A stretch of 34,120 nucleotides of DNA. Source: Deinococcales bacterium. GTDB lineage: Bacteria > Deinococcota > Deinococci > Deinococcales > JAAFIG01. The DNA lies in the NCBI GenBank assembly GCA_013298595.1, contig JAAFIG010000044.1, positions 1-34,120 on the forward strand, read 5' to 3'. The notes under the pieces were generated by a model. That model was given only the letters and a program-made list of their open reading frames with translations, was not told the DNA's origin and searched no databases. Below, piece by piece: positions 1 to 34,120 of the stretch (its first letter is position 1; the number at the start of each line of letters is the position of its first letter). The position numbers and the translations under genes were made by a program.

Positions 1-1
1 G

Positions 2-106
2 AAAGCTGTTGTGGAGAAGTGGTTACTTGATTTTTCTGGTGATGTTGAACGGGTTAAACGGTTGTGTGGGTGGGATTGGATCAAAGAGAATTTATGTCTT
101 ACTTAA
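2..106 (+). CDS. 3' end of an unknown protein (partial, start outside window)
   Basis: An open frame enters from the left edge and ends at TAA 104-106, giving the last 34 residues, which include WLLDFSGDVERVKRLCGWDW. The composition (charged, Trp-rich, no low complexity) looks like real protein. It converges on the next gene, 17 bp away. I do not recognise the family. The alternative is a chance open frame, since only about 100 bp are visible and it contains no CTCGAG copy. Confidence 0.45.
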   Translation, partial: KAVVEKWLLDFSGDVERVKRLCGWDWIKENLCLT

Positions 107-123
107 ATGCCAATTTGGTATAA

Positions 124-1167
124 CTACCCTATTTGGGTGCTACGTATTTGGTCACGTCCACTTTTCTTTGCCGAAAATAACGCCACATCAACGCGAGCTA
201 AGGTCTGCTCGAGTGTTTCATTGGTTTTACGGCTGGCTAATCCAATACTGACTGTAATCCGAATCCCACCAGGGTTAGCTTCGAGAATCCCTTTGCGTAA
301 ACGTTCAGCTAGTTCTTGGGCTTGCTCGAGACTTGTATTGTTGGCAAGTACAAGGAATTCTTCGCCTCCCCAACGAGCAACATGGTCACCATGCCGAGTT
401 AAATTGCTTAGACAAAATGCGAGTTCACGCAGTACAATATCGCCAAAAGGATGTCCATAATGATCGTTGACACTCTTGAAATGATCCACATCAAGCATGA
501 TTAGTACATAAGGTGTGTTGCTGTTATGGATTTGCTCGAGGTGTTGCTGCATGGCTCGGCGATTTTCGATGTTGGTTAAGGCATCTGTATGGGCTTGGCG
601 TTGTACTACATTGAATTGTTGCTGCATTCTGCCAAAAAAAGTAATCAGGGTTAGGATTGACAGATTTGCAGCATGAAATTGTAGAACTGAATTAAATTGT
701 GCTTGGCTGATACCAGTGCGGAAGTGCCAAAACGAAATAAGCAGCGCAATGGCATTGTAAAATATGCCGAATCTGAGGGCGTTATGTGGTTGTAATCCAA
801 GGTAAGCCAGTATTGTGCCAAGCGAAAACCACGGAATACCCGCACCAAAACGGTCTTCGCTGAGGTCGCGTGGCAACCCTGTGGCGTGTAGATCGAACAG
901 CATATAGGTTGCACCAACCAGCAAAATACAGAGTTGAATGCTATTGACGCTTTCTTGATGGGTGATTAACCAAAGACCTGCCAGCATAAATGTTAGGCAA
1001 ATAATTGGTAAACCATACTGATCGGTGGCTGTGACAGTGGGTAAAGTATGAATCAGTAACCATGAAACAGCCGCTGCTACGGCACCAAGACACAGGATGA
1101 GCAGAGTCCCCCAGAAACGAAATTGACTTACTGAAATGTTAAACCGAAATAATTGCCTCAGAGGCAT
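124..1167 (-). CDS. Membrane-bound diguanylate cyclase (GGDEF domain)
   Basis: Predicted to make the second messenger c-di-GMP from two GTP. Residues 1-180 are largely hydrophobic and look like about six membrane helices; residues 185-340 form a GGDEF domain facing the cytoplasm. The active-site loop reads GGEEF (267-271), an active variant, and the metal-binding motif DVDHFKSVND begins at 226. An intact product-inhibition I-site, RHGD (258-261), sits at the canonical distance before GGEEF. The start is taken at ATG 1167; a GTG lies one codon upstream at 1170. The membrane part is not a sensor I can name. It is the last gene of a minus-strand pair with the stalk-domain gene, 57 bp downstream of that stop. 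The transmembrane region holds the longest CTCGAG-free stretch in the window. Confidence 0.9.
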   Translation of the reverse strand: MPLRQLFRFNISVSQFRFWGTLLILCLGAVAAAVSWLLIHTLPTVTATDQYGLPIICLTFMLAGLWLITHQESVNSIQLCILLVGATYMLFDLHATGLPRDLSEDRFGAGIPWFSLGTILAYLGLQPHNALRFGIFYNAIALLISFWHFRTGISQAQFNSVLQFHAANLSILTLITFFGRMQQQFNVVQRQAHTDALTNIENRRAMQQHLEQIHNSNTPYVLIMLDVDHFKSVNDHYGHPFGDIVLRELAFCLSNLTRHGDHVARWGGEEFLVLANNTSLEQAQELAERLRKGILEANPGGIRITVSIGLASRKTNETLEQTLARVDVALFSAKKSGRDQIRSTQIG

Positions 1168-1224
1168 CACCTACGAAGTTCAGCATAACAAGAATAAGCT
1201 GCAAAGTGTTGTTGCTACACTCGA

Positions 1225-3006
1225 TTATTTGCCACTGACATTGAGTAACCGAGCTTCTGGGCGGTAATAAATAAAATTAATTGGCAAGTACGAACCACTG
1301 GCGGGTACAATTTCAATTTCGATGCGGTCACGGTCGTTACTGCGATAAACCACCACAGGTAAATCGTTACGGTACAAGGTGCCACTATCGGGTAAAGCAG
1401 TGTAAACCCCATTGATTTTCATTGCTCCAGCATACGGACCACCTCGTGGCACCAGAGCACCAACAGTTCCCCTGGCATTCTCGAGCACAATCGAGTAAGT
1501 CACACCAAAGTTGCCTTTGAGGTTCATTTGATCGTTGGTTAAGGCATCGCGTCCAATGACATTTGGGTCGTAATTGCCATCGCCAATGATTTGCCGCACA
1601 GCATTGCCTGTGGTCACTTGTGATAAATCCACACGAATACGGCGCACAGCACCGTAGAACGTGCCTCGTTGATGGATGCCATCGCGGTCTAGTGCCGATA
1701 AACTGCGTAAGGTCGAAAGCATTAACGCCCCAGCTAAATCACCAAGGCTTGGCGTAACCAAGGCTTCCTCGAGATAAAACACAGAAATTTGGATTCGGGC
1801 ACTAGATTCAAGATCAAACATCAGATTTAAACCTTCGCCTGGGTCTAGCGGATTGGAAATATACAAAGGTGCAGCTTTGTTTGGTTCAAGCGAAAGGGTT
1901 TCTAAACCACTCGAGGTTAAGAAATCCAGTAAACTGGCACGCCCCAGTGTTGCCACCACAGTTGTGGCACTGGTCACACCAAAACGCGAAACTTTGACCG
2001 AAACAGGGATTGTCTCGAGGTTTGACACCCAGACCAGTAATCGTCCTGGGGTGTTCATACCATTAGTATGGTACGCCATTAAACGAGCTGGACCATTGAC
2101 GACTTCTTCGTAGAGCAAACCACTTTTTTCGGGTTCTTCGGGTGAATCCGAGAAAATCAGTGGTATGGCATCATCATCGCGGTTAATTTGAGCTTGGGCG
2201 TAACTAAGTACATCCGAATCTGGAAATGTTCGTCCAACAGGAACAAAACGTAAACCATATTCTTTAGCGGTGTACAAAACTTCTTTGGTAACTTTGATAT
2301 TGACCGAAAAAGGTTCAGAAACCAAATTATTTTTATTGGTGACTGTTAAAGAAATGGTTTTTAAACCTGCTACAAAATAGGCTTCTTCACGTCCAGAGAA
2401 ACGCTCAATGGTGATTGGAACACCATTTGGGTCGTAACTGTACTCAATAATGCGAACAGGTTCACCAATTTTGTACTCTTTTTTATCAGTTGCAAAACGC
2501 GCAATTGGCAAGCTGGCATCTGCGCCTCGATCCCTCGAGATGGTAATACTAATAATGCGTTGCACTGCATCGAATACCACCGAAGCATTGAGGGCTTTAT
2601 CTAAAATACGTGCCACCACAAACATATTGCCATCTAAAATAGTTGCTACATCCGATAATGGTACTTGTACGCCACTTAAACGAGCTAAACGCGAACTGGG
2701 GTAAATCTCGAGTTTGCCAAACCGAACACCATCTGGAACATCTTTAATGGCTTCAATTGGCACAGCCAAAATGCGTCCAAGTTCCCGCAATGGCAGCACT
2801 GTCCGACCATCCACAGTTCTGGCACTAGCAGCGAATTGCACTTTGACCCCATTTAAGAAACCAAAATTGGCATCCAAAGGCCAGACCAACTGACGAGTAA
2901 TTAACTTTGTTGTCGGACGCGGGGGTTGCGCGGTCTGAGCCAAAGCAAAAGCACAAAAGAAAAGCGCGAGCGGGATAAAACCTCGCGCGAAGATAGACAA
3001 CTTCAC
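1225..3006 (-). CDS. Secreted protein with copper-amine-oxidase-type stalk domain
   Basis: 593 residues. Residues 1-25 are a signal peptide (hydrophobic core then FALAQ), so the protein is exported. Residues 45-155 resemble the copper amine oxidase N-terminal (stalk) domain, a non-catalytic fold common in secreted proteins of Firmicutes and Deinococcota, with the typical RTVLPLRELGRIL stretch. Residues 175-250 look like a PKD/Ig-like beta domain. The rest (250-593) is beta-rich, without catalytic motifs I recognise. The start is GTG 3006, seven bases after TATCGT on the minus strand (3014-3019), matching the leaderless pattern used elsewhere here. A surface, envelope or cell-wall binding role is inference. 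It is divergent from the helicase gene. Confidence 0.75.
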   Translation of the reverse strand: MKLSIFARGFIPLALFFCAFALAQTAQPPRPTTKLITRQLVWPLDANFGFLNGVKVQFAASARTVDGRTVLPLRELGRILAVPIEAIKDVPDGVRFGKLEIYPSSRLARLSGVQVPLSDVATILDGNMFVVARILDKALNASVVFDAVQRIISITISRDRGADASLPIARFATDKKEYKIGEPVRIIEYSYDPNGVPITIERFSGREEAYFVAGLKTISLTVTNKNNLVSEPFSVNIKVTKEVLYTAKEYGLRFVPVGRTFPDSDVLSYAQAQINRDDDAIPLIFSDSPEEPEKSGLLYEEVVNGPARLMAYHTNGMNTPGRLLVWVSNLETIPVSVKVSRFGVTSATTVVATLGRASLLDFLTSSGLETLSLEPNKAAPLYISNPLDPGEGLNLMFDLESSARIQISVFYLEEALVTPSLGDLAGALMLSTLRSLSALDRDGIHQRGTFYGAVRRIRVDLSQVTTGNAVRQIIGDGNYDPNVIGRDALTNDQMNLKGNFGVTYSIVLENARGTVGALVPRGGPYAGAMKINGVYTALPDSGTLYRNDLPVVVYRSNDRDRIEIEIVPASGSYLPINFIYYRPEARLLNVSGK

Positions 3007-3057
3007 GTAAGATACGATAACAACTTTATTGCTGAAAAAAAAGGGCGAATGCCCAAA

Positions 3058-3086
3058 TTGACATTTACACTGTCAGGCTCGAGAAT
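3058..3086 (+). promoter_or_regulatory. Promoter of the helicase gene, leaderless type
   Basis: A perfect TTGACA (3058-3063), a 17-base spacer and GAGAAT (3081-3086) are followed by only five bases before ATG 3092. This places the transcription start at or next to the start codon. No Shine-Dalgarno sequence is present. A CTCGAG copy (3080-3085) overlaps the -10 box. Confidence 0.75.
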
Positions 3087-3091
3087 ACAGT

Positions 3092-4540
3092 ATGGCAAAG
3101 GTGACACCGCGTTTAACATTTGATCGGGGCACTTTGCTGCTGCACCCACCACCCTCGAGTGGAGCCTGGGCAGGCATTGCCGAATGGGATGACCGCATCG
3201 AACGCTTACGCGCCCCAGCGTGGCAGTACCGCCGCTTACTAGAAGGATTACAGCGCGATAACGTGCCACTCGAGGATAAAGCCAAAGCCTTCGAGAACCT
3301 GCATTTACAACTGGCATTAACCCAAGAACCTTTTGAACACCAAAGCGCAGCCCTCGAGGCATGGATAACAACAGGGCGGCAAGGTGTGATTATTTTGCCA
3401 ACGGGTGCAGGCAAAACCTTTGTTGCCATGCTTGCTATGCAACGAACCCAACGCAGCACCCTGATATGCGTACCAACCCTAGACTTGATGCACCAATGGT
3501 ACGCCAATTTGCAAGCCGCTTTTCCAGATACCGAAATTGGTTTACATGGCGGCGGTTCAAAAGACCTCTCGAGCATCCTGATTAGTACTTACGACAGCGC
3601 TCACCGCTTAATCGAACACAACGGCAACCGTTGGGGCTTACTAATTTTTGACGAAGTGCACCATTTAGCAGGCGATCTTTACAAAACCATTGCCGAGTAC
3701 AGCCTCGCCCCGTACCGCCTCGGCTTAACCGCCACCCTCGAGCGACCCGACGGCAGACACTCGAGTATCCTTGGTTTAGTCGGACAAGTGGTTTACCGCG
3801 CTCGCCCAGAAGATTTAGCAGGCAATGCCTTAGCCCCATACGACTTGGTACGAATCAGCGTGGACTTGTCGGTTGCCGAACGCGAAGAGTACAACGCACA
3901 CCTCGAGACGCGCAGTACATTTTTGAAAAAACGCAACATTCGTTTATCCAGTTTAGAAGGCTGGTCAAGATTTATCCGCGAAAGTGCCAAAAGCCAAGAA
4001 GGCAGACGAGCCATGCTGGCACACCGCGAACTCAAACGCCTCTCCAAAGCCAGCGATGCCAAACTTCGCACTTTAGACGAACTGCTGCAAAGCCATCTCG
4101 AGGAACGCACTTTAATTTTTACCGACGATAACGAAACAGTCTACGACATCTCGAGAAAACTCTTAATCCCAGCTATCACCCACCAAACAGCCGTCAAAGA
4201 ACGTCACAGCATCCTCGAAAATTTCCGCAACGGCACATACCCTGTACTGGTTGCCTCTCGCGTGCTTAACGAAGGCGTGGACGTACCCGAAGCCAGCCTC
4301 GCTATTGTCCTCAGTGGCACAGGTAGTCACCGCGAACATGTGCAACGCCTCGGACGTATCCTCAGAGCCAGACCAAACAAACGCGCCAAATTGATCGAAG
4401 TGATCTCCAAAGACACCCTCGAGGAAGGCACAGCCAAACGTCGCCACGAAAAACTCGAGCCAATAGAAAACAAGCAACCCCGCGAGGGACTCGAGAAAAT
4501 TCAAGAAGCCCTGAGTTTTGATGACTTACTGAACTTATAA
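3092..4540 (+). CDS. SF2 DNA helicase, XPB/ERCC3-like
   Basis: 482 residues with the full SF2 motif set: Walker A LPTGAGKT (102-109), motif II DEVHH (187-191), motif III region TATLERPDG (213-221), motif V VLNEGVDVPE (391-400) and motif VI QRLGRILR (418-425). The layout (short N-terminal domain, then RecA1, an insert and RecA2) matches bacterial and archaeal XPB-like helicases, which translocate on DNA and act in repair or transcription-linked processes. Archaeal XPB often sits beside the nuclease Bax1; no such gene is seen here. The gene stands alone, with its own leaderless promoter and 277 bp of non-coding DNA after it. It carries many CTCGAG copies; 8 of 11 Leu-Glu pairs are CTC-GAG. Confidence 0.88.
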   Translation: MAKVTPRLTFDRGTLLLHPPPSSGAWAGIAEWDDRIERLRAPAWQYRRLLEGLQRDNVPLEDKAKAFENLHLQLALTQEPFEHQSAALEAWITTGRQGVIILPTGAGKTFVAMLAMQRTQRSTLICVPTLDLMHQWYANLQAAFPDTEIGLHGGGSKDLSSILISTYDSAHRLIEHNGNRWGLLIFDEVHHLAGDLYKTIAEYSLAPYRLGLTATLERPDGRHSSILGLVGQVVYRARPEDLAGNALAPYDLVRISVDLSVAEREEYNAHLETRSTFLKKRNIRLSSLEGWSRFIRESAKSQEGRRAMLAHRELKRLSKASDAKLRTLDELLQSHLEERTLIFTDDNETVYDISRKLLIPAITHQTAVKERHSILENFRNGTYPVLVASRVLNEGVDVPEASLAIVLSGTGSHREHVQRLGRILRARPNKRAKLIEVISKDTLEEGTAKRRHEKLEPIENKQPREGLEKIQEALSFDDLLNL

Positions 4541-4817
4541 AAACGGTGACTCGAGATGGCTGGGAATCTCAAAACTGCAAAGCTAACCCATGAGCAAATC
4601 GCAAGTAGCGCGTTTAAACTTTAAAGAACTTGAATGACAAAGGATTTTACACCCGAGCCTCGATCTAAACTTAAAGGCTTGAGAAAACATTCCAATAGCT
4701 TCAAACACGAGTTATGAAAAACTACCCCAGTATCTCGAGGCAATAGAACCCTGTGGATTTTGCCTGCTTAGACGATCTATAAACGGTTTCAACTTGAATT
4801 TTGTATGATGACCCGCG

Positions 4818-6788
4818 ATGAATGAAATTTTAGCCACCAATACGCTCCGCGCCCTCGCTCTTGATGCGATCTGCAAAGCCAAAGAAGGTCACCCCGGCGC
4901 TCCGCTAGGCATGGCAAGCATGGCGTATGTGCTGTGGACAAAAATCATGCGCTACAACCCTAAAAACCCAGCTTGGATTGGCAGAGATCGCTTTGTGCTC
5001 AGCGCAGGGCACGGCAGCATGTTGCAATACGCTGCACTGCACTTAACGGGTTACGATTTACCACTCGAGCAAATCAAAGCCTTTCGACAATGGGGTAGTA
5101 GCACCGCAGGACACCCCGAAGTAGGTCATACTGCAGGTGTCGAAACCACCACAGGACCACTCGGACAAGGTTTTGCCAATGCGGTTGGTATGGCATTGGG
5201 GTTGCATCATTTGGCAGCGCGGTACAACCAACCTGATCTCGAGATTTTTAATAATGTTGTTTACGGCATTTGTTCCGATGGCGATTTACAAGAAGGTATT
5301 TCCCACGAAACTGCCAGCCTTGCAGGGCATTTGGGTTTAGGCAAATTAGTGATGTTGTACGACGATAACAACATTCAACTCGATGGTCCAACCGAATGGG
5401 CATTTTCTGAAGATGTTACCAAACGCTTTGAATCCTATGGTTGGCAAGTGCTCGAGATTACGAATGGCGACACTGATTTTGCAGGTTTAGAAGCGGCTAT
5501 ACTAAACGCCAAAGCCGACCCACGCCCCAGTTTAATTCGTGTTAAAACCACCATTGGGTATGGTTTACCAAAAGCAGGACTTGCTGATGTGCATGGCAAA
5601 GCGCCAAGTACCGACGATGTGATATTTGCCAAAAAACAATATGGTTTTACCAACCTCGAGCCATTTTATATAGACCCAGACGGAGCCAAACCTTGGCAAG
5701 AAGCAGGTGCCAAAGGCGCAGCACTCGAGGCAGCTTGGCAAAATCAATTCCAAGTGTATGCCGATACATTCCCAGTCGAGCACGGTGAAATAGTGAGTAT
5801 TGTAGAAAATTATGCCACACATATTTCGCTCGAGCACATGCCCAAATACGAAACTGGGAAAATGGTTCGTACTCGCAACGCAGGTGGCGACAGCATCAAC
5901 ACCCTCGCTAAACTCGAGCCGCGTTTAATCGGTGGTAGTGCCGATTTAAGCAGCAGCAACATGACCACCATCAAAAGCGAAGCTGCCATGACTCGAGATC
6001 AACTGGCAGCAAAAAACATTAACTTTGGTGTGCGCGAATTCGGTATGGCAGGAATTGCCAACGGCATGGCATTGATTGGTTTACGCCCATTTGTTGCCAC
6101 GTTTTTTACTTTCTCTGATTACATGAAAAATGCTATTCGTATGGCAGCCCTGATGCACCAACCCGTCATATTTGTGTTTACTCACGACAGTATTGGCGTA
6201 GGCACAGACGGACCAACGCATCAACCCATCGAACACTTAGCAGCCTTACGTGCCATCCCAAACCTCAGTGTGATCCGCCCAGCCGATGCCAACGAAACCA
6301 GTGTCGCATGGAAAACAGCTCTCGAGCAACAACACAAACCAACTGCTATTATCCTCAGTCGCCAAGATTTACCAGTCCTCGAGAGTAACGCAAACGCACA
6401 AAAAGGCGGCTACATTGCTAAAGATTGCGAAGGCACACCCGACGTAATTTTAATTGCCACAGGCAGCGAAGTGAGCCTCGCCCTCACAGCCCAAAAAGCC
6501 TTACTCGAGCAAAACAAAAAAGCTCGAGTGGTCAGTTTATTATCATGGGACATTTTCTCGAGCCAAACAACCGAGTACAAAGAAAGTGTTCTACCTAACA
6601 ACATCCGCGCTCGAGTTGCCATCGAAGCAGGCTCGAGCCTAGGCTGGGAACGGTTTGTGGGCTTAGACGGCGGTACGGTGACACTCGACAGGTACGGCGC
6701 AAGTGCGCCAGATGCGGTGGTGTTTGAAAAGCTAGGATTTAATGTGGAGAATGTGGTTAAGGTTGTCCTCGAGACATTGGGGAAGTGA
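4818..6788 (+). CDS. tkt: Transketolase
   Basis: 656 residues, full length for the family. It transfers two-carbon ketol units in the non-oxidative pentose phosphate pathway using thiamine diphosphate and a divalent metal. Visible hallmarks are GHPG (24-27), the thiamine-diphosphate/metal motif SDGD (153-156) with N185, [15 protein letters not shown] in the pyrimidine domain, and the C-terminal [12 protein letters not shown]. The start ATG follows TATGAT (4804-4809) by eight bases with no clear Shine-Dalgarno sequence. The upstream spacer 4541-4817 holds two CTCGAG copies (4550-4555, 4734-4739) and nothing else I can identify. The gene has 16 CTCGAG copies: 11 as Leu-Glu, three as X-Arg-X and two as Ser-Ser. 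Confidence 0.97.
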
Positions 6789-6794
6789 GTTGAT

Positions 6795-7445
6795 GTGTCT
6801 TCACAATTAACTTTAGAAAATAGTCTGGTTCAGAGTATCGCATCATCAGACCTTAAAGATGTCATGCCTGACCTAGTTGAACTTGGAATGGATAGTGTTC
6901 TTAAAGATGGTATTTTTAAAGAAGTGCCAGTTATCAGTACATTACTAGGCTTGTATAGTGCTGGGCGTGGAATCCGTGACTATCTATTTACAAAAAAAGT
7001 GATCAAATTTTTAATGGAACTTGATAGAATACCCTACCTTGAGAGGCTCAAATTTATTGAAGAAATTAATGGAGCTTCTAAACAAACTCAATTAGGAGAA
7101 ACACTTTTATTATTGCTTGAGAGGCTAGATGATTTTGGTAAATCTGAAATTTTGGCACGCTTTTTTTCTTGCCATATTAGAGGCGAAATTGATTTTACTA
7201 TGTTTAGAAAATTATCAACTGCGTTAGAGAAACTTCCGATAGATTATATTACTTCTCTTCATGATTTTTATTCATCTACAGATGTAAAACAAATACATCG
7301 AGATTCTACGTCACTGCTAATTGCTGGACTTGTAGATATTATATTTATACCACTGCCTTTTAGCGATACTCGTGGACAATATTATAAAAATGAATTAGGT
7401 AGAATTTTTTTGGAAAAATATCAAGCTAAACCTACAGAAATGTAA
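6795..7445 (+). CDS. AT-rich conserved unknown, probably imported
   Basis: 216 residues from GTG 6795, the earliest possible start because a stop (the tkt TGA) lies in frame just upstream. No Shine-Dalgarno sequence or TANNNT box is visible, so it may be read through from tkt, 6 bp away. Mostly helical; a central segment GLYSAGRGIRDYLFTKKVIK (about 53-72) is followed by charged helices. I have an impression of similar unannotated proteins in accessory regions of other bacteria but cannot name a family. GC counted over 6841-7440 is 194/600, about 32%, far below the neighbours. It contains no CTCGAG, and none of its five Leu-Glu pairs uses CTC-GAG. Both signs point to recent acquisition. Function unknown. 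Confidence 0.75.
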   Translation: MSSQLTLENSLVQSIASSDLKDVMPDLVELGMDSVLKDGIFKEVPVISTLLGLYSAGRGIRDYLFTKKVIKFLMELDRIPYLERLKFIEEINGASKQTQLGETLLLLLERLDDFGKSEILARFFSCHIRGEIDFTMFRKLSTALEKLPIDYITSLHDFYSSTDVKQIHRDSTSLLIAGLVDIIFIPLPFSDTRGQYYKNELGRIFLEKYQAKPTEM

Positions 7446-7530
7446 AAATTCAGTGGTACTGTGGAGATAACGCTAACATCATCACTTCTATACTCGAGGC
7501 AACTGACCAAAAAAACGTAATTTCTCACGC

Positions 7531-7707
7531 ACTCCCCCTCGCTTCGCTCGACCCCTCATTTGAGGGGTTCAAAAGTCAAAAGCCACCACCAAACCCTCTC
7601 CCCGCGAAACGACCATGCCCGAAGGTGCGTGTATATGGTCAAGAAGCGGTGTTTTGGGAGAGGGTGACGAGCCTAAGCGAGTCGGGAGAGGGGCTTTCTG
7701 ACCATAT
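7531..7707. repeat. GC-rich structured intergenic repeat (REP/MITE-like)
   Basis: Nested inverted repeats fill this spacer. ACCCCTCA-TT-TGAGGGGT (7551-7568) is a perfect hairpin. ACCCTCTCCC (7593-7602) pairs with GGGAGAGGGT (7656-7665), and a related GGGAGAGGGG lies at 7684-7693. ATATGGTCA (7633-7641) pairs with TGACCATAT (7699-7707). CTCGCTTCGCTCG (7538-7550) is an imperfect inverse of 7668-7681. No open frame of note. The local GC is well above that of the gene upstream. The rest of the 7446-7818 spacer holds CTCGAG copies at 7493 and 7731 and the promoter below. Whether copies exist elsewhere in the genome cannot be seen here. Confidence 0.6.
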
Positions 7708-7784
7708 TTTGTCTTGTGCTAGCAAGGTTTCTCGAGCCTGTAGCATTGGCAGTTTGGTGTGTCCTAAGTCCTCGGGTTAAATGG

Positions 7785-7812
7785 TTGACAATTCAAGTAA
7801 ATCCCGTACACT
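7785..7812 (+). promoter_or_regulatory. Promoter of the toxin-antitoxin pair, leaderless type
   Basis: TTGACA (7785-7790), a 16-base spacer and TACACT (7807-7812), then six bases to ATG 7819. The CTCGAG copy at 7811-7816 overlaps the end of the -10 box. No Shine-Dalgarno sequence. Confidence 0.75.
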
Positions 7813-7818
7813 CGAGAT

Positions 7819-8049
7819 ATGGAAATTGCTCTTTCAGAAAATGCTGTTAAACGCATGGAAAAATTGCGTCGTAGCTTGAGAACCTCTCGAGCTGATGTGG
7901 TTGAACAGGCTTTAGTTGATTTGGAGCGTCGCGCTGCAAATTTTAGAGCGATTCTCGAGGATGATGCTGTCAATCATGATCTGAGTGAAGCTGAGGGTGT
8001 GGCGTTGGCGTTGGAAGCTCAACGTGCTGTTAGGGCTAATCGTCGTTGA
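7819..8049 (+). CDS. Ribbon-helix-helix antitoxin (CopG-like)
   Basis: 76 residues. The first 45 have the ribbon-helix-helix pattern: a short beta strand (MEIALSENAV) and two helices rich in Arg/Lys and Glu. The C-terminal half, acidic at first, would be the toxin-binding tail. Such proteins bind their own promoter as dimers and neutralise the partner toxin. Its stop TGA (8047-8049) overlaps the ATG of the PIN gene (8049-8051) by one base, the usual coupling in toxin-antitoxin operons. Family assignment is from pattern only. Confidence 0.75.
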   Translation: MEIALSENAVKRMEKLRRSLRTSRADVVEQALVDLERRAANFRAILEDDAVNHDLSEAEGVALALEAQRAVRANRR

Positions 8050-8489: not shown

Positions 8490-8503
8490 ATTTTAAAAAT
8501 ACT

Positions 8504-9025: not shown

Positions 9026-9137
9026 GTTTGGATTTTACTGTTTGCAAATGAGTTCTGTACTAGCCTTTCGTAGAAGACAAATATGAATGCTGTGTTTGTG
9101 TGTTGCGCTCGAGGATAATTTTTCGTTAACATCTTTT

Positions 9138-11369
9138 ATGCCAAAACCCTCGAGTTTACTGGGCTTTCCTGTACTGGGAGCGCTGAGTGTTTTGTTAGGT
9201 GTTTTACTCGAGCGGGCGGGCTTGCGTTTTTGGTTTGTTTTTGTAGTGGCAGTGGCAGCTGTGCCGTTATGGTTTTTGCGTGTTCCGCAAGCGGTGCGTA
9301 TTGCTTTGGTGGTGGCATTGTTGTGTTGTCCTTTGGCGTGGTGGCGAAGTCATACCAGCCATAGTGCGGATAATCTCGAGCCTTTTCTGGGAAAAACCGT
9401 GGTTTTAGAGGGTGATTTTGATGGGCGTTTTTTAACGTCGGCTTCGGGTCGGGTGTTGTTGCGCTCGAGAAAAGATTTAGCAATGGGTGCGTATCGAATC
9501 AGTGGTAAGCTCGAGAAACCGCAGTGGTACAGAAATCCTGGGGCGTTTGATGTTGGTGCTTGGTTAGCGGCTCGGGATGTGCGTTATGTGTTGCGGGTCA
9601 AAAGCGCTGAGGCTTTACCAAATAGTTTTTTGAATACTGTGCGGACTTGGGTGCGAACAGGGGTCAGAACTGGTTTGCAACCTCGAGAAGCGGCTTTGAT
9701 GACAGGTATTGCTCTTGGTGATGCCGATGAACTCAACGGTTTAGCTGTTTCTGAATCTGAAAGTTGGCGGGATATTTTTGCCAAAAGCGGTTTGGCGCAC
9801 ATCATGGCATTGTCGGGGCAACAAGTGACCATTTTGATTGTGGCATTATCGTGGTTGTTGCGTGGGTTGCTGCTTTGGCGGTTCCCTGCTCTGATGATGT
9901 TGCTGGTTGCGTATTGGGCTGTGGTGGGTACAGCACCGAGTGTCTCTCGAGCTGTGGTGATGGGTTTAGCGGTACTTTTGGTGGGTTGGCTTGGGCGGGG
10001 TAAACTCGAGGCATTACCTGCATTGGGGTTAAGTGCGATTTTTACATTGTTGTTGCAACCCAGTTGGGTGGCGGATATTGGTTGGATGCTTTCGTATTTA
10101 GCGGTGCTGGGTATGATTTTTTTTGTTCCTCTGTTGCTCGAGCGGTTAGGTTTACAACAACCAGATTCCGATCAACCAATATGGATTCGGGTGCGTTACT
10201 GGGCAACTGCGTTAATCATTGCAACTGTCGCAGCACAAACACTAACCTTACCTTTAACCGCTAGTGGGTTTGGCATGATTCCAGTAGTTTCGCCAATTTC
10301 TAATGTATTTGCCGAGGTGCTGGTCACACCCTTGGTTATTCTTAGTTTTTTTGCAGGTTTACTGGGGCAATTTAGTTTACCAATTAATTTTGTTGTGCAA
10401 TTCGTGGCTTTTGCCTTACTCGAGATTGCGAAATTCTTTGCCCAAGCACCCATTCTCGAGTGGGGAACAATTGGTGTACTGGGTTTTGTGGCGTATTACA
10501 GCAGTATGACAGCCTTGTATTGTTGGCTGTTGCGTTGGATTCGTCCGTATCAGATGTTGGCGGTTTTATTAGCTGCTGTGCTGATTACTGCTTTAGCAAA
10601 ACGTTCTCGAGCAGAAATTATTTACTTTGATGTTGGTCAGGGCGATGCCACCTTAATTCGTTTACCTGTAGGCGATATTTTGATTGATGGTGGTGGTACA
10701 CCACAAACAGATTTTGACATTGGGCGACGTGTGATGATTCCTGCTTTACGCAGTTTAGGTGTTAAAAACCTAACTGTAATTGCCACTCACGCCGATGCCG
10801 ATCATGTTGAAGGTTTAACCCCTGTATTGCAACATTTTGCTATCTCGAGTCTGATTATTGGGCATGATAAAACCACTGGTGAAGATGCTGTTTGGGATGT
10901 GGTCATGGCAGCGGCTCGAGCTAAGAATATTCCTGTTCGGGCAGTGCAAAACGGTATGGATTGGCAGTTAGGCGAAGCAAAAATTCATTTTTTTAACCCT
11001 CAACCCAATCCATTACCCGAAGACAATGCTAATTCGGTGGCGTTCAGTCTCGAGTATCTGGGTAAGCGCTTTTTATTTCTTGGGGATGTGCCAAGTGACA
11101 TCGAGGACACCATGAACCCAGGAGCATTGGATGTACTCAAATTAGCTCATCATGGCTCGAGGTTTTCGACTGGTGAAACGTTAATGCGTCGCACACAACC
11201 CAAAGCAGTGGTTGTTTCCAGTGGGCTTGGCAATACATATGGGCATCCAAGTCAAGTGGTGCTTGAACGAGTCAAACGTTACCGTAGCCAAGTGTTTCGT
11301 ACCGATTTACAAGGTGCAATTATTTATAACTTTAGTACAGGTCAGTTTGTAACCTTGACCGCACCTTGA
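9138..11369 (+). CDS. comEC: ComEC, DNA uptake channel with metallo-beta-lactamase domain
   Basis: 743 residues from ATG 9138. ComEC carries single-stranded DNA across the inner membrane during natural transformation. The N-terminal part has membrane helices and the DUF4131-like soluble segment; the middle is the Competence domain with ALSGQQVTIL; the C-terminal part (about 490-743) is a metallo-beta-lactamase-like domain with DVGQGD (starting at 498) and the metal motif HADADH (551-556), associated with processing of the non-transported strand. ATG 9138 is preferred over the upstream in-frame ATG 9087 because TAACAT (9127-9132) lies five bases before it and the protein then starts at the first hydrophobic segment. 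Its presence suggests the organism may be transformable; comEA is not adjacent. Confidence 0.92.
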   Translation: MPKPSSLLGFPVLGALSVLLGVLLERAGLRFWFVFVVAVAAVPLWFLRVPQAVRIALVVALLCCPLAWWRSHTSHSADNLEPFLGKTVVLEGDFDGRFLTSASGRVLLRSRKDLAMGAYRISGKLEKPQWYRNPGAFDVGAWLAARDVRYVLRVKSAEALPNSFLNTVRTWVRTGVRTGLQPREAALMTGIALGDADELNGLAVSESESWRDIFAKSGLAHIMALSGQQVTILIVALSWLLRGLLLWRFPALMMLLVAYWAVVGTAPSVSRAVVMGLAVLLVGWLGRGKLEALPALGLSAIFTLLLQPSWVADIGWMLSYLAVLGMIFFVPLLLERLGLQQPDSDQPIWIRVRYWATALIIATVAAQTLTLPLTASGFGMIPVVSPISNVFAEVLVTPLVILSFFAGLLGQFSLPINFVVQFVAFALLEIAKFFAQAPILEWGTIGVLGFVAYYSSMTALYCWLLRWIRPYQMLAVLLAAVLITALAKRSRAEIIYFDVGQGDATLIRLPVGDILIDGGGTPQTDFDIGRRVMIPALRSLGVKNLTVIATHADADHVEGLTPVLQHFAISSLIIGHDKTTGEDAVWDVVMAAARAKNIPVRAVQNGMDWQLGEAKIHFFNPQPNPLPEDNANSVAFSLEYLGKRFLFLGDVPSDIEDTMNPGALDVLKLAHHGSRFSTGETLMRRTQPKAVVVSSGLGNTYGHPSQVVLERVKRYRSQVFRTDLQGAIIYNFSTGQFVTLTAP

Positions 11370-11395
11370 AGGTTGACAAGGTGTATTCTGATGCT

Positions 11396-21520: not shown

Positions 21521-21533
21521 GATTTCAAACATT

Positions 21534-23293: not shown

Positions 23294-23297
23294 ATCT

Positions 23298-24380: not shown

Positions 24381-24445
24381 TGGGTTAGTGTACTGCTTCT
24401 TGGTAAATCATTGCACAAGGGCAGATGAGACCAAAGCAATAAGCT

Positions 24446-24799: not shown

Positions 24800-24879
24800 G
24801 TTTGTGGACCTCCTGATGGGTTCGGGGATGTTATATTTTTTGCCGATTATCGGACTCTACCAGAGGTTTAACTGGGAGG

Positions 24880-24896
24880 GTGTGCAATTTGCACAC
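24880..24896. promoter_or_regulatory. Perfect 17-bp palindrome, operator-like
   Basis: GTGTGCAA-T-TTGCACAC lies in the 174-bp gap between divergent genes (starts 24799 and 24974). It matches the site in the lepB promoter at 15 of 17 positions. Confidence 0.5.
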
Positions 24897-24973
24897 GAGT
24901 ACCCAAATTGTGCTTCTCGAGTCTGGGTATTTACGTATCTTGATTTGATTTTTAGTGTGATACATTCAAGAAT

Positions 24974-25749: not shown

Positions 25750-25782
25750 GGTTAGCTTTTCACAAAGCTGTAGAATGTTGTC

Positions 25783-28167: not shown

Positions 28168-28192
28168 ATCCCCTGCCGCAGGAGTGTTTTTC
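28168..28192 (+). terminator. Weak candidate terminator after the alpha-glucosidase
   Basis: A short CCTG-CCG-CAGG stem just after the stop is followed a few bases later by five T (28186-28190 region). The stem is only four to five pairs, so this is weak. Confidence 0.3.
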
Positions 28193-28220
28193 TCACCGAT
28201 AATCCGATATGCTCAGCAAC

Positions 28221-28871
28221 ATGAAGATCGTCAGTATCAACATCGCCTCACCGCAAAAAATGCAGATTGGTGAGCAAAATATCAGCACAGGGATTTATAA
28301 AACCCCTGTGCAAGATGCTGAACTGACCGAACAAGGTATCCAAGGTGATTACATCGGCAATCTGAGATACCACGGTGGAGAAGACCAAGCTGTCTATATT
28401 TACACCACCGAAGATTACGATTGGTGGATAGACACCCTCGGACGCGAATTGCCACCGGGTACATTTGGTGAAAATTTAACCCTCAGTGGTTTTGAAAGTG
28501 CCAGTTTACACGTAGGCGACCGAATTCTGATTGGTGATACCACCCTCGAGACTGCACCAATGATGCTCGAAGTAACTGCGCCACGTATTCCGTGCAGCAC
28601 TTTATCTACCCGTATGGAAATAAGTAACTTTGTTAAACACTTTGCCGTAGCCGAACGTCCAGGCGCGTATTGCCGTGTACTCGAGACTGGTGCTATTCAT
28701 ACAGGACAAGATATTTCTTTGCAGCCGTGGATGAATGGCAGTGTCACACTGATTGAATTGATGCGCTGGCACTATGGTAAACCCACTGATCGTGACCTGA
28801 AACGCGCCCTGACCACACCACTTGCCGAACGTTGGCGCAAAATGCTTGAAGAAGAAATGGTTGGCTCGTAA
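28221..28871 (+). CDS. MOSC domain protein (YiiM-like)
   Basis: 216 residues from ATG 28221. The order GIQGDYIGNLRYHGGEDQAV, GTFGENL, VGDRILIG and APRIPCSTL (C125 conserved) is that of stand-alone MOSC proteins such as E. coli YiiM, which reduce N-hydroxylated bases such as 6-N-hydroxylaminopurine with a molybdenum cofactor. ATG 28221 (MKIVSIN, seven bases after TATGCT at 28208-28213) is preferred over ATG 28209. It converges on the TauE gene, five bases away. Confidence 0.88.
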   Translation: MKIVSINIASPQKMQIGEQNISTGIYKTPVQDAELTEQGIQGDYIGNLRYHGGEDQAVYIYTTEDYDWWIDTLGRELPPGTFGENLTLSGFESASLHVGDRILIGDTTLETAPMMLEVTAPRIPCSTLSTRMEISNFVKHFAVAERPGAYCRVLETGAIHTGQDISLQPWMNGSVTLIELMRWHYGKPTDRDLKRALTTPLAERWRKMLEEEMVGS

Positions 28872-28876
28872 GCATT

Positions 28877-29611
28877 TTAGAAAAACAGTAATTTAATACC
28901 ACCCACTAAAGCAAACCCCAGTGCCAAACGATCAAACCAGACTTGATTGATTCGGTGTAACAAAAACTGTCCTAATGCCGCTCCAACCAACACACAAGGC
29001 ACCAATAACAAATCAAACCACAAACTGCCCCAGTTAATAATGCCAATACCCACGGCAAACGGCACTTTAAATACATTGACCACCAAAAAAAACCAAGCTG
29101 TGGTACCAACAAACTCGAGCTTAGGTAAACGCATTGCCAACAAATAGATATTCATAATCGAACCAGCCGCATTTGCCAGCATGGTGGTAGTACCCGCACT
29201 AACACCGACCAATGCCGCCACTCGAGGATTTTTTGGCGGCTCGAGCTGACCACGCCAAACACGAATTATTTGTAGTATTGCAATCAGTAAAATACTCGAA
29301 CCAATCAAACGATTGACCAGACCACCATCTAAACGTCCAAGCAGCAAAGTACCAATGACCACACCCAACGCAGCCCAAGGAAAAATTCGCCAAAGCTGCT
29401 GCCAATTGGCATGATGACGAAATAAAAATACACCAATAATATCACCCAGAATCAGCAGTGGTAATGCCGCACCTGTCGCTACTCGAGGTGATAAAAGTAA
29501 TGCCATGCCAACTGTGCCAAGTATACCAATACCAGCTAAACCTGTTTTGGAAACACCAATAACAACCGCGCAAAAAGCAGCGAAAAACCAACCCCAAGAA
29601 TCTAATTGCAC
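28877..29611 (-). CDS. TauE/SafE family permease
   Basis: 244 residues, about seven or eight membrane helices in two similar halves (ISKTGLAGIGILGTVGMALL and GVSAGTTTMLANAAGSIMNI), the TauE/SafE pattern. Members export sulfite or organosulfonates or are of unknown use. The start is GTG 29611, seven bases after TAAACT (minus strand 29619-29624), so it likely has its own leaderless promoter although it follows the nucleotidyltransferase gene by only 17 bases. Confidence 0.85.
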   Translation of the reverse strand: MQLDSWGWFFAAFCAVVIGVSKTGLAGIGILGTVGMALLLSPRVATGAALPLLILGDIIGVFLFRHHANWQQLWRIFPWAALGVVIGTLLLGRLDGGLVNRLIGSSILLIAILQIIRVWRGQLEPPKNPRVAALVGVSAGTTTMLANAAGSIMNIYLLAMRLPKLEFVGTTAWFFLVVNVFKVPFAVGIGIINWGSLWFDLLLVPCVLVGAALGQFLLHRINQVWFDRLALGFALVGGIKLLFF

Positions 29612-29628
29612 TGGTTTGAGTTTAACAC

Positions 29629-30372
29629 TTACAGGATTTTATCCAAGGCATCCCGAAGTCGTTCTCGTATCTCGAGCAAAGATAAATCCATCTCGAGACC
29701 TTGTTTTTTCAAAAAAGACCGCCATTTGCGCCCAGTCGAAATACTTGTACCCCACGAGTCGCGCTGGCGAAAATCTTCAAGATCGGAGAGCAAAGCACCG
29801 TGACTCGAGAAAGCCAGTTCGATTTCTGGGCATAACAATGCCGGATTCATTGGCACATTGCGCCAGAGTAAATCCAAATCGAATAAATCTTTGGCACGCC
29901 AACGCCCTAATCCAAATTCAACCAGTCCATGTAATTTCCAAGCAAACAATGTTTCTGCTGCACTCGAGAGGAATAAACCAACCTCTGGTATATGCGTAGC
30001 TCGAGGCTGAAGCAATATTGGTTCGTGAAATGCAAAATCTATTTGCAGGGTTTGCGGCTCATTATTTTCTACGGTGCCACTACAAAAAACTCGAACACCC
30101 GGAAATGGTGTACCAGCCCAAATTGCATTGGTAGACTCGAGAAAGAGTGTAGTTGTGGCATCGGGTAGCACAACAATTTCTCGAGCTAGTTGAACAGTAG
30201 CAGCTTCATCAAATTCTCCTCGTACCAAAAAATCCACATCATGAGCAGCTCGAGCATTTTGGCATAAAGCATTGGTTAAAAGACTGCCACGTAAAATGAC
30301 ATCCGAAGCTCGAGGGTGCTGGTTAGCACGCCGTAACACACCCGCTAAAAGTGCGTAGTTGGCTTCTTCCAT
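29629..30372 (-). CDS. AbiEii-type nucleotidyltransferase
   Basis: 247 residues from ATG 30372. The NTase-fold signature is visible: LRGSLLTNAL (GS at 29-30) then HDVDFLV (D45, D47 acidic pair), and later LFAWKLHGLVEF and RWRAKDLFDLDLL, typical of the DUF1814/AbiEii family. AbiEii is the toxin of a type IV abortive-infection system and related enzymes add nucleotides to tRNA ends. No AbiEi antitoxin precedes it; instead its start overlaps the RNA ligase gene by 28 bases. A longer frame upstream to 30729 is a shadow over the ligase gene. Last gene of the operon. Confidence 0.8.
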   Translation of the reverse strand: MEEANYALLAGVLRRANQHPRASDVILRGSLLTNALCQNARAAHDVDFLVRGEFDEAATVQLAREIVVLPDATTTLFLESTNAIWAGTPFPGVRVFCSGTVENNEPQTLQIDFAFHEPILLQPRATHIPEVGLFLSSAAETLFAWKLHGLVEFGLGRWRAKDLFDLDLLWRNVPMNPALLCPEIELAFSSHGALLSDLEDFRQRDSWGTSISTGRKWRSFLKKQGLEMDLSLLEIRERLRDALDKIL

Positions 30373-31040
30373 GAATTCATCACCGCCTCGAGTCCTATGT
30401 GATCGGCAAGGTATAACCCATCTTGTTTGCCGTGTCGTACATATTTTGCTAATAACAAAACCTGTTCGTTGCGCTCGAGACGATAGACCACACCCTCGGC
30501 AGGTTCCAGTGCGCCATGATGCCCATATTGCCCCAGCAGCCTTAGTGCTTGCTCGAGCGGTAAGGCACTGCCAGCGTGCAAAACTCGAGGTACTGGTAAG
30601 GCAACAGGAGCAATTTTCTCGAGCAATGCTGCATGGGTTAAACGCGTACCATCGGTTGTGAAAAAATCCAATGCCACCACAGGTTCGTGTGGTAAAGCAT
30701 AACGTGTGCCATGCGTTACCGCTAACCATTCAAGTGCCAGCCGTTCTGATTCCTCGAGCCAAGTAAAACGTATTGCATTTTCGCTGAGCCAAGCGGCAAA
30801 CGCAGTTCTCAGTGGATTTCTCGAGTTTGCACAAGCTTTCCCATCACGCCCCAATGCCACTAAAACACCGTTTTGCCGAGTAACAATCACATTTGAACCA
30901 TCAAGTTTTTCTTGCACAATTACTCGTTCGAGAGGGTTGCAAAGCTCGAGTAAACGTTTTGCTGCTACCAGACCAATATGCCGATCTGCCTGACCCGTTC
31001 TCGAGCCAGGTAAATGGGGAATTTTTGCGTACAACTTCAT
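30345..31040 (-). CDS. RNA ligase family protein (ATP-dependent)
   Basis: 231 residues. Covalent nucleotidyltransferase motifs are present: motif I EKLDGSN with the adenylated lysine K45; a later VALDFFT strand; motif IV AEGVVYR; motif V LLAKYVRHGKQ. This matches the RNA ligase (Rnl2/T4-like) domain without an added OB or phosphatase domain. It would seal RNA 3'-OH and 5'-P ends after AMP activation. ATG 31040 overlaps the stop of the upstream gene as ATGA, indicating coupling. The GTG at 31049 is less likely. The substrate is unknown; its partners suggest RNA end repair. Confidence 0.85.
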   Translation of the reverse strand: MKLYAKIPHLPGSRTGQADRHIGLVAAKRLLELCNPLERVIVQEKLDGSNVIVTRQNGVLVALGRDGKACANSRNPLRTAFAAWLSENAIRFTWLEESERLALEWLAVTHGTRYALPHEPVVALDFFTTDGTRLTHAALLEKIAPVALPVPRVLHAGSALPLEQALRLLGQYGHHGALEPAEGVVYRLERNEQVLLLAKYVRHGKQDGLYLADHIGLEAVMNSWKKPTTHF

Positions 31041-31711
31041 GACCCCCACGCACCATCTAACTCGAGATGCGAATCGAACACACAGAACTCGGCAATGCTA
31101 TCCTCAACCACAAAACCAGCCAAACGCAAATGTAATAGCAACTCATCAAACAACTTTTGCGCCACACCTCGAGACACACCATACGCTCGGCGTGTCACAA
31201 AACGCTGCGAGAAACCCGCCCCGAGTTGCTTAAACGCATTACTGGAAAGATGCGCCTTGTGCAAAGTCGCAATCCGCTCGAGACGAGTGATATTTGCAAC
31301 ACTGGGCAAAACCAGTTTGGCATGATGCTCGAAGTACTCGGCAATATTCTCAGGAGCCACATTTTGTGGCACATGTGAATTCCACGGAGCCGCCTCGAGT
31401 TTACGCCGCGTCACCACAAAACCATTGGTTTCCAGCAAATCACGAACACGATTCACCTCGAGTAATGCCTGTGCCAGCGAACCCGTAAACCTCGAGCAAG
31501 TCATAATTTGCACAGGTGTGTTATCGGAAAAATCAATTTGCAAAGCCTTTAAGCGCAACTCGAGACAAAGTTTTTTGAACCGCTCGAGTTCAGAACCTTG
31601 CAGCGGAGCCACCGTGACATGAAGTTCAAAGGCATCCTCGGCTGCACTGGCAACACGATTCACAGCAAAGAAACAAGGTTGAACATTTTCCAGTAAGCAC
31701 AACGGATTCAT
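31037..31711 (-). CDS. Unknown protein heading the RNA ligase operon
   Basis: 224 residues from ATG 31711. The N-terminal part (FELHVTVAPLQGSELERFKK, QIMTCSRFTG and the stretch GFVVTRRKLEAAPWN) looks like a conserved alpha/beta domain with a possible HVTV motif reminiscent of 2H phosphoesterases, but only one clear HxT/S-type motif is seen, so this is not claimed. The C-terminal half (VTRRAYGVSRGVAQKLFDEL) is basic. ATG 31711 is chosen because AAGGAGGTGAT sits at the right distance (AGGAGGT ends seven bases before it). Its end overlaps the ligase ATG. Function unknown; by position a partner of the ligase. Confidence 0.7.
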   Translation of the reverse strand: MNPLCLLENVQPCFFAVNRVASAAEDAFELHVTVAPLQGSELERFKKLCLELRLKALQIDFSDNTPVQIMTCSRFTGSLAQALLEVNRVRDLLETNGFVVTRRKLEAAPWNSHVPQNVAPENIAEYFEHHAKLVLPSVANITRLERIATLHKAHLSSNAFKQLGAGFSQRFVTRRAYGVSRGVAQKLFDELLLHLRLAGFVVEDSIAEFCVFDSHLELDGAWGS

Positions 31712-31712
31712 T

Positions 31713-31735
31713 GACATCACCTCCTTGGTGATATC
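31713..31735 (-). promoter_or_regulatory. Perfect Shine-Dalgarno sequence held in a hairpin
   Basis: On the minus strand AAGGAGGTGAT (31716-31726) is a full complement to the 16S 3' end. It lies in a hairpin: GATATCACC (31727-31735) pairs with GGTGATGTC (31713-31721), nine pairs with one wobble, loop AAGGA. The left arm imitates the anti-Shine-Dalgarno sequence and would hide the site. Upstream, TTGGTT, 17 bases and CAGAAT form a plausible promoter. Confidence 0.65.
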
Positions 31736-31845
31736 AACATTCTGGCAGTAAATAACCAATAAACCAAGCGTGTAATAACGTAGTTGACCTAAGCCACTCG
31801 AGTTAGTTGGTCTATTTCTGATGCTCAATTGCGTTAGAATTCCGT

Positions 31846-32979
31846 ATGAAAAACTGGCAAGCACTGGCACAAACCGTTCTGCAAGAACTTTGGGGTAAGG
31901 AAGTAACCTGCATCACCACCGATGAATTTCGTAACGAAGGACGAAACCGCGTTTATCGCTTGGCACTTACCAATGCACCCGTCTCGAGTGCAATCTTAAA
32001 AGCATCAGTTGGAGATGAACAAAACCCGTACACCATTGGTGATACTAACCCACGCAGCGCATTCTCGCGTTTTTGTAACGAATGGGCAGGTTGCCAAATG
32101 CTAGCGCCATTAGGATTAGGCGCGAAAGCCTATGTAGGTAGTGTCGAACATGGTTTTTTTATCATGGAAGATTTAGGCGAAGGTATCAGTTTGGCAGATA
32201 AACTCACCAGCAACAAACCCGCAGAAGCCACCGATGCTTTGTTTTTATATGCCAGAAGTCTTGGTCAACTCCACGCTGCAACTCAGAACCAAGTAGCCCA
32301 TTGGCAAGAGCTTCGCAATCAACTCGGAGCAACCAACCAATCATCAAATCTCGAGACTTGGGCAAATGAAACACAGCAATTTACCAGCATTTGTCAGCGT
32401 CTATCTATCAATATTCCCGAACCATTCAACCTCGAGATGAAAACCATTCAAACGGCACTCGAGCATCCTAATGATTATCTGGTTTTCACACCCACAGATT
32501 GCTGCCCTGACAACCATTATTTGCAAAACGAATCCCTGATTTTCTTTGATTGCGAATGGGCAACCATGCGTCATGCGCTGTTGGATGTGGCATACATGCT
32601 GGTGCCATTTCCAACATGTTGGTGCATGAGTGCGATACCAAAAGATTTGACGCAACAATTGATTGAAACTTACCGAAAAGAATTCAATGGAAGTCCAGAT
32701 TTTGAAGACCAATTAACACTAGCAATGGCTTACTGGACTATCAATACTCTCACTTGGAAATGGGCTGGGGATTGGGAAGAAACCGACCATACTTGGGGTT
32801 TGGTGACATTGCGCCAACGACACTTGCATCGGTTAGAAAATTTGTTAGCTCGAGAAAATCTGTTCACACTCCTGCCAAGCTTTAACCAAGTGGCTCGAGA
32901 TTTACACAGTGCTTTGCAAATGCAATGGAAAGATTTAATACGAATACCACTTTATCCTGCTTTTAGCAAAACAGATTAA
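31846..32979 (+). CDS. Aminoglycoside-phosphotransferase-like kinase
   Basis: 377 residues of the APH/choline-kinase-like fold. Visible parts are AILKASVG (ATP-binding strand and Lys), ARSLGQLHAATQ, the catalytic loop TDCCPDNHYL (D...N pattern) and the metal Asp in FFDCEWA. The usual HGD of the Brenner motif is replaced by PTD. The natural substrate is unknown and resistance should not be assumed. ATG 31846 lies five bases after TAGAAT (31835-31840). Confidence 0.75.
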   Translation: MKNWQALAQTVLQELWGKEVTCITTDEFRNEGRNRVYRLALTNAPVSSAILKASVGDEQNPYTIGDTNPRSAFSRFCNEWAGCQMLAPLGLGAKAYVGSVEHGFFIMEDLGEGISLADKLTSNKPAEATDALFLYARSLGQLHAATQNQVAHWQELRNQLGATNQSSNLETWANETQQFTSICQRLSINIPEPFNLEMKTIQTALEHPNDYLVFTPTDCCPDNHYLQNESLIFFDCEWATMRHALLDVAYMLVPFPTCWCMSAIPKDLTQQLIETYRKEFNGSPDFEDQLTLAMAYWTINTLTWKWAGDWEETDHTWGLVTLRQRHLHRLENLLARENLFTLLPSFNQVARDLHSALQMQWKDLIRIPLYPAFSKTD

Positions 32980-33067
32980 CGTAGTATTTCGCATACTTCT
33001 GGTCTCGAATAAATCTTGACCGAACTGAAATGGATGCTTTGCGCTTAAAAAGACGTACAATCCTTGA

Positions 33068-33502
33068 GTGAACCAACCCTTTCTTCTCAATGTCAGCGTG
33101 TTTGTTTTAATCCAACAAGGCTCAAGTATTTTGCTTTTGCACCGCAAAAATACGGGTTGGCAAGATAACAAATGGAGTTTGCCCGCAGGGCGACACGATG
33201 GTGCTGAACCACTACCAAATGCTGCTGCAAGGGAATTACTCGAGGAAACTGGTTTAGTTGTACAACCAGAAAACCTCGAGTTGGTTCATGTTCAACACCA
33301 TAAAATTGGACGAGATGGCAAAGAATGGCTTGGAGTGTTTTTTAGCGCGTCACATTGGACTGGTACACCAACCCTGCTCGAGCCAGACAAGCACGATGCT
33401 TTACAGTGGCATGAAACCCTGCCCGATACAATGGTGAATTATGTGCGTGAAGCAGTAGAAAAAATTGCTGTGGGTCAACGATTCTCAAGTGTTGGTTGGT
33501 AA
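33068..33502 (+). CDS. Nudix hydrolase (second)
   Basis: 144 residues. Nudix box GRHDGAEPLPNAAARELLEE then TGL is complete. Surrounding parts (LLHRKNTGWQDNKWSLPAGR; the region around EWLGVFFSA) resemble ADP-ribose or (d)NTP pyrophosphatases of the MutT type. The start is GTG 33068, six bases after TACAAT (33056-33061). Its last 28 bases overlap the convergent phosphatase-like gene. Confidence 0.88.
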   Translation: MNQPFLLNVSVFVLIQQGSSILLLHRKNTGWQDNKWSLPAGRHDGAEPLPNAAARELLEETGLVVQPENLELVHVQHHKIGRDGKEWLGVFFSASHWTGTPTLLEPDKHDALQWHETLPDTMVNYVREAVEKIAVGQRFSSVGW

Positions 33503-33897
33503 GTATTTGTCAGTTCTAGCATGAGAACCTCTAAGTGCTGCACAATCGAATCTCGGCAAACTTGGACATTCACACTGGCGGGTGGAACATCTGTCCAATC
33601 TCGGCGTTTATGTTCTGGTACACCCAAAGTAATTAAATCACAACCCATGGTGATGACCATATCTGCTGTGTTTAATTCAGTCGTGGTGACAAGCCGAGGA
33701 CGATGCCCTGTTACGTTAAACCCTTCTGAATCGAGAAAATCGGCAACGACAGGCATGATTGTGGCATCTGGTTCTGTGCCAGCACTGAGGATGGTTAATT
33801 CAAAGTGGTGCTGTTCAGCTAAACGCTTGGCGTAAGCCTCGGCAATCACACTTTTAGCGGCATGGTGCGGGCAAAGAAATAAAATAGTTTGAGGCAT
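33475..33897 (-). CDS. LMW protein-tyrosine-phosphatase/ArsC-like protein, altered P-loop
   Basis: 140 residues with the fold and length of low-molecular-weight phosphatases and thioredoxin-type arsenate reductases. The N-terminal loop reads CPHHAAKS (C9 to S16), CX5K, where active members have CX5R and usually Asn in the middle. A possible acid loop DWTDVPPAS is present. With Lys at position 15, phosphate binding may be altered, so the protein may have another activity. A Shine-Dalgarno sequence AAGGAG lies five bases before ATG 33897. It follows the truncated gene upstream by 11 bases, probably in one operon. Confidence 0.75.
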   Translation of the reverse strand: MPQTILFLCPHHAAKSVIAEAYAKRLAEQHHFELTILSAGTEPDATIMPVVADFLDSEGFNVTGHRPRLVTTTELNTADMVITMGCDLITLGVPEHKRRDWTDVPPASVNVQVCRDSIVQHLEVLMLELTNTYQPTLENR

Positions 33898-33908
33898 GGT
33901 GTCTCCTT

Positions 33909-34120
33909 TTAACTCAGTTCGGTATACAGGGCTTCAAAGATCAGGTGGCTTTGTTCAAGGGCGGCATGGTCGGTTTTGCAATTGCGTCGAATGCCTCGGC
34001 AGATGGTGTCTAAACCAATCGCTATTGGCTCGAGGTTAATTTCATGGATTTCATCAGCTTCGTTGATGATTCGGGCGATACGCCAAAGGGTTTGATCGGT
34101 CAGGTTGTATTCTTCTAAGA
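33909..34120 (-). CDS. 3' end of an unknown protein (partial)
   Basis: An open frame runs in from the right edge and stops at TAA (33909-33911), giving about 69 residues: LEEYNLTDQTLWRIARIINE, then LEPIAIGLDTICRGIRRNC and LIFEALYTELS. It looks helical. A CTCGAG copy (34031-34036) reads Leu-Glu in this frame, supporting that it is coding. No family recognised. It lies 11 bases upstream of the phosphatase-like gene. Confidence 0.6.
   Translation of the reverse strand, partial: LEEYNLTDQTLWRIARIINEADEIHEINLEPIAIGLDTICRGIRRNCKTDHAALEQSHLIFEALYTELS

Follow-up and report, generated by a model that had tools for sequence, protein, structure and literature searches.

Why does the palindrome CTCGAG recur throughout a 34,120-bp stretch of a Deinococcales genome (the whole of which is called the window here), and is this a property of the locus or of the lineage? 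An earlier note, made from the sequence, had arrived by hand count at approximately 208 copies against approximately 7 expected, an excess of some 30-fold. The exact count is also 208, where base composition would give 6.8 copies and a first-order model 3.2. The excess is borne out and is in fact stronger than noted; against base composition it stands at approximately 30 times expectation both in the window and in genome samples. No other 6-bp palindrome in the window exceeds 2.3-fold and several have no copies at all. As had been claimed, the copies lie in all coding phases (99, 43 and 38) and in non-coding DNA (28). With the two individual copies that had been cited, the one at 7811-7816 is exact while that given as 3080-3085 was misplaced (Table 1).

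Table 1. Coordinates of features in the window.
Feature	Position	Strand	Remark
208 CTCGAG palindromes	1..34120	.	exact count; gap median 113 bp, range 11-945
Longest CTCGAG-free interval, 945 bp	535..1480	.	within diguanylate cyclase gene region
CTCGAG between divergent genes	3078..3083	.	corrected position of the copy cited at 3080
XPB-like helicase gene	3092-4540		with damage-recognition domain
Transketolase gene	4818..6788	+	orthologue anchor across the order
CTCGAG adjoining promoter-like sequence	7811..7816	.	cited in the earlier note
comEC-like competence gene	9087..11369	+	present in window

The excess is not local. The whole genome, a Deinococcales MAG of 4.58 Mb in 68 contigs from an uncultured organism related to Deinococcus and Thermus, has 27,159 copies of CTCGAG (5.9/kb), this being one per 169 bp and approximately 3.6% of all bases. 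The effect was to be regarded as local or compositional if the genome had CTCGAG near expectation or if isomers such as GAGCTC were equally enriched; neither is the case, because these 27,159 copies compare with just 15 of GAGCTC, none of them in the window. Statistics other than these whole-genome totals come from stretches that total 874 kb, or 19% of the genome, with genes defined by simple longest-ORF calls rather than curated annotation. Around gene starts the density of CTCGAG is flat except that it drops at the start codon itself, and no other special placement was found there; the overlap with promoter boxes is not a feature in its own right. The excess is confined to the six bases themselves, and the three genomes examined for flanking extension of the motif have no preference in common. 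Most other palindromes are strongly avoided in genome samples (L037-L056, 434 kb), with GGCC occurring 17 times and CCGG 102 times (1,119 expected in each case) and AGGCCT, GACGTC and GGGCCC having 0 copies. This avoidance varies between relatives, as GGCC is not avoided in G012, a genome of the sister family.

Codon usage, dipeptide composition or an assembly artefact could be proposed as the source of the pattern, and the commonest phase is that in which CTC GAG encodes Leu-Glu. However, a codon-preserving shuffle of the window genes, as the earlier note had advised, gave 17.7 +/- 3.5 coding copies against the 180 observed (z 46). Over the 874 kb of this genome (G000), CTCGAG occurs at 5.66/kb in coding and 5.76/kb in non-coding DNA. 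Of 3,823 Leu-Glu dipeptides, 64.7% are written CTCGAG compared with 5.3% expected from codon usage, while in the other two frames the motif fills 63% and 37% of the places permitted by the protein. Leu-Glu itself is 2.3 times commoner in G000 than its residues predict (2.2-2.4 in the other dense genomes), and the Leu-Glu pattern is similar in G001-G003 and G012/G016. If these fractions represent mutation-selection balance, a simple calculation gives a scaled coefficient of approximately 3.5 per site. The excess is not codon usage; that explanation, to which we would assign practically no probability, is refuted by the shuffle, the presence in all phases, the equal non-coding density, the near absence of GAGCTC and the recurrence of the pattern in independent MAGs from other projects.

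The CTCGAG excess is real, genome-wide and lineage-wide. Judged by the transketolase, the nearest named relatives are two MAGs, 87% and 68% identical, that carry the label Deinococcales. Comparison of related genomes, another check that had been advised, gave 26,600-28,200 copies in each of the four genomes of the same family (G000-G003, MAGs 91-94% complete), and these together with two genomes of a sister-family genus (G012 and G016) possess 6-8 copies/kb, the value for G016 being 7.7/kb. The density is steady over sampled G+C contents from 45% (G000) to 59% (G002). Also in the sister family, G008 has 3.6 copies/kb and G004 has only 683 copies, fewer than its GAGCTC. The genus g7 of the order, with many genomes of 2.0-2.4 Mb, has no CTCGAG excess, and g13, a genus of the same family as g7 with genomes of approximately 3 Mb, has mostly about 2-3 copies/kb. 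Two distant genomes of the order have CTCGAG/GAGCTC counts of 12,737/802 (G104) and 11,982/257 (G068), and these may be independent intensifications of the motif.

CTCGAG sites exclude one another below approximately 20 bp, an effect which fades by approximately 50 bp and which is new here. With the nearest site at 6-12 bp, 17% of the places permitted by the protein are occupied, rising to 30% at 12-18 bp, 42% at 18-24 bp, 51% at 24-36 bp and 71% at 72-96 bp, with about 70% beyond 72 bp. No comparable trend was found with control distances (frequent hexamers, GCGC, one-off motifs and unoccupied places), the scarcest control, TTGCAA, falling to 0.82-0.88 with some 50 places. When all pairs of five genome sets are combined, pair density relative to a null of independent occupancy is 0.36, 0.35, 0.34, 0.53, 0.54, 0.78 and 0.81 for the consecutive 3-bp bins between 6 and 27 bp, or more broadly 0.35 at 6-15 bp, 0.53 at 15-21 bp, 0.8 at 21-30 bp and about 1 beyond 70 bp; these data give no sign of a 10.5-bp helical phasing of pair distances. 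The exclusion is not absolute, since close sites are still occupied above the codon-usage baseline (17% compared with 5%). G000 and G003 show it more strongly than G001 and G002, and the moderately enriched G008 and G006 have no clear exclusion.

Later work on the palindrome HIP1 (GCGATCGC) has found it conserved at orthologous positions beyond chance. The same applies to CTCGAG, for which this check had been advised: over the 50 kb of alignment from 44 orthologue pairs of G000 and G001, which are 69% identical in nucleotides, the shared fraction of the sites is 56% and 50%, against 15.6% for hexamers generally. Part of this sharing arises because occupancy is high in both genomes: at places with Leu-Glu in both, 82% of the sites in G000 have a counterpart, and G001 carries CTCGAG at 74% of all these places. 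Sites present in G000 only and in G001 only lie 6-24 bp apart 30 times compared with 15.5 expected, and shared sites have fewer neighbours of that kind than expected. Lost CTCGAG sites are replaced within 24 bp, and it is the presence of a site nearby that is conserved, rather than its exact base.

Long stretches poor in CTCGAG carry acquired-looking genes, these being a HEPN/GmrSD/methyltransferase module, an E2/ThiF/JAB module and an integrase-core gene, so that incoming DNA seems to acquire the motif slowly. The first module (L039:7963-11089), apparently a recently acquired defence island, has genes for HEPN (RiboL-PSP), GmrSD_N and a divergent beta methyltransferase with zero copies among them, while the CTCGAG-poor stretch of the second encodes a protein with prokaryotic E2, ThiF and JAB domains (L044:9159-11378). 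Recently acquired defence islands are without CTCGAG. Among the matches listed, the viral contigs L319, L263, L316 and L278 have more than 3 copies of CTCGAG per kb and no GAGCTC; they could be phages of CTCGAG-rich hosts, or simply of high-G+C hosts.

HIP1 had been put forward as the established precedent, and the comparison is a sound one. Like HIP1 and the alternate HIPs of cyanobacteria (Elhai, 2015; PMC4390886), CTCGAG is a palindrome with an excess of tens of fold across the genome, present in every phase and outside genes as well, and it is the dominant over-represented oligomer of its genome, as the class requires. HIP1 is scarce in genomes where an alternate palindrome dominates, and here it is near absent (4 copies in 4.58 Mb). 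In contrast to the HIPs, the host belongs to the Deinococcota and not to the cyanobacteria, and the density of 5.9/kb, or 7.7/kb in G016, exceeds the 1-2/kb that is typical of HIPs without strictly defining them. The motif is 67% G+C compared with 75-100% for replacement HIPs, no shared cognate methyltransferase was found among the four family genomes in the four enzyme families searched, and an exclusion below approximately 20 bp is not described for HIPs in the text consulted. Nor is CTCGAG among the HIPs in Elhai (2015). No earlier report of CTCGAG as an iterated palindrome was found in the literature searched, within which the original statement that no equivalent had been described still holds. 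The sequence is identical to the recognition sequence of XhoI/PaeR7I-type restriction-modification systems. Restriction sites are normally avoided in genomes, whereas CTCGAG is enriched here, and a search for an XhoI-family endonuclease gave no match in 11 genomes and was also silent in control genomes.

The explanation which we favour, at a probability of approximately 0.45, is that CTCGAG is a HIP-like palindrome maintained by selection for its recognition by a putative resident, sequence-specific DNA-binding factor. Selection appears to maintain the spread of the copies, and CTCGAG is therefore probably read by a protein along the whole chromosome. The function of the motif, and every functional step in the following, we infer. 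The putative factor, probably a dimer on the palindrome, would bind CTCGAG, the exclusion distance with its step at approximately 20 bp would be the footprint of the bound protein, and the benefit would lie in covering the chromosome evenly, with a site every 170 bp or so, in the manner of an architectural or nucleoid protein. The factor would probably be architectural in role, and of the roles proposed in the earlier note chromosome organisation fits best, with DNA uptake disfavoured. Within the same model the protein might modify the site and not only bind it, and the deficit of close sites could reflect diminishing returns with no footprint, a weaker form of the footprint reading.

The main rival to a binding factor, possible although on balance unlikely, is that CTCGAG is a methylated mark, with its sites created and kept by methyl-directed repair or self-recognition. 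Such an origin was proposed for HIPs by Elhai (2015; PMC4390886), in whose study every HIP genome had a matching methyltransferase. In Halorubrum, CTCGAG is the target of an m5C enzyme (PMC8112702), and a short-range repair patch could also yield the spacing rule. For METHYLTRANSFERASES, the genome itself has a single m5C enzyme, a weak match to D12 and a DrmMI of DISARM-like type; of its other enzymes, one beta enzyme adjoins a NotI-like endonuclease gene, a second beta enzyme lies in the CTCGAG-free island, and a gamma enzyme adjoins a restriction gene. The DISARM-like DrmMI methyltransferase gene (L041:7499-11224) has a 37% identical copy in G012 (L073). The best candidate for a resident enzyme is the m5C gene G000:C15:67907, which has CTCGAG at normal density, matches an orphan-methyltransferase model and has orthologues in the distant G105 and, with identities as expected under vertical descent, in G001 and G012. 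However, its distribution over 111 genomes is patchy, with no orthologue in the equally rich G002 and G003, in G016 and G008, or in most other enriched genomes. The orphan methyltransferase common to CTCGAG-rich genomes that had been suggested was sought, and none common to all four family genomes was found among PF00145, PF01555, PF02384 and PF02086 (m5C, beta, gamma and D12). The hallmark seen by Elhai in the HIP genomes was therefore not found here as far as tested; a shared enzyme may lie outside the searched families or be missing from the MAGs. In addition, the mismatch-repair model of that paper predicts approximately 1 site/kb, whereas there are 6/kb here.

Two further rivals fare worse against the spacing and sequence data. 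A DNA-uptake or transformation signal, accumulating via biased uptake and recombination (molecular drive), is very improbable. Naturally competent genera occur in the phylum, a comEC-like gene is present in the window, and recently acquired DNA is without the motif. The uptake sequences of Pasteurellaceae and Neisseriaceae are likewise very frequent short motifs whose even spacing has been discussed (PMC1939737). However, they are non-palindromic and longer, with approximately 1,500-2,000 copies per genome, whereas CTCGAG is palindromic with 27,159 copies, some 6-7 times as dense as the signals of Haemophilus or Neisseria by the counts in PMC1939737. Taken together, its single-mismatch forms show no enrichment (1,190 observed compared with approximately 1,516 expected), and the spacing effect extends over tens of bases and not over the length of a transforming fragment. 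A functionless bias of mutation or repair, for example short-patch repair turning near-matches into CTCGAG, could affect coding and non-coding DNA alike, and most transversion one-off forms are below expectation in G000. It is nevertheless improbable, as it predicts neither site exclusion, local compensation nor the enrichment of Leu-Glu. Very-short-patch repair would be expected to leave fewer of the transition products CTTGAG and TTCGAG, but neither is below expectation in any of the four genomes tabulated, and this signature was rejected.

For the preferred reading, that of a resident DNA-binding factor, a more far-reaching form would be a chromatin-like system, which we consider doubtful. 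In it, a sequence-specific architectural protein would sit on a 6-bp palindrome approximately every 170 bp over the entire chromosome, with about 20 bp per bound unit, strong enough in its effect to reshape codon choice and the dipeptides of the proteome and marking self versus recently acquired DNA. The function of HIP1 is still unsettled in the literature searched, and CTCGAG provides an independent case that is several-fold denser and comes from a different phylum. Its spacing rule is measurable, and neutral repair and kb-scale models do not predict it. An exclusion below approximately 20 bp, compensation within at most 24 bp and a steady 6 copies/kb across G+C contents of 45-59% give a quantitative handle, which is applicable to cyanobacterial HIP genomes and to the cultivable genera of the order with a moderate CTCGAG excess.
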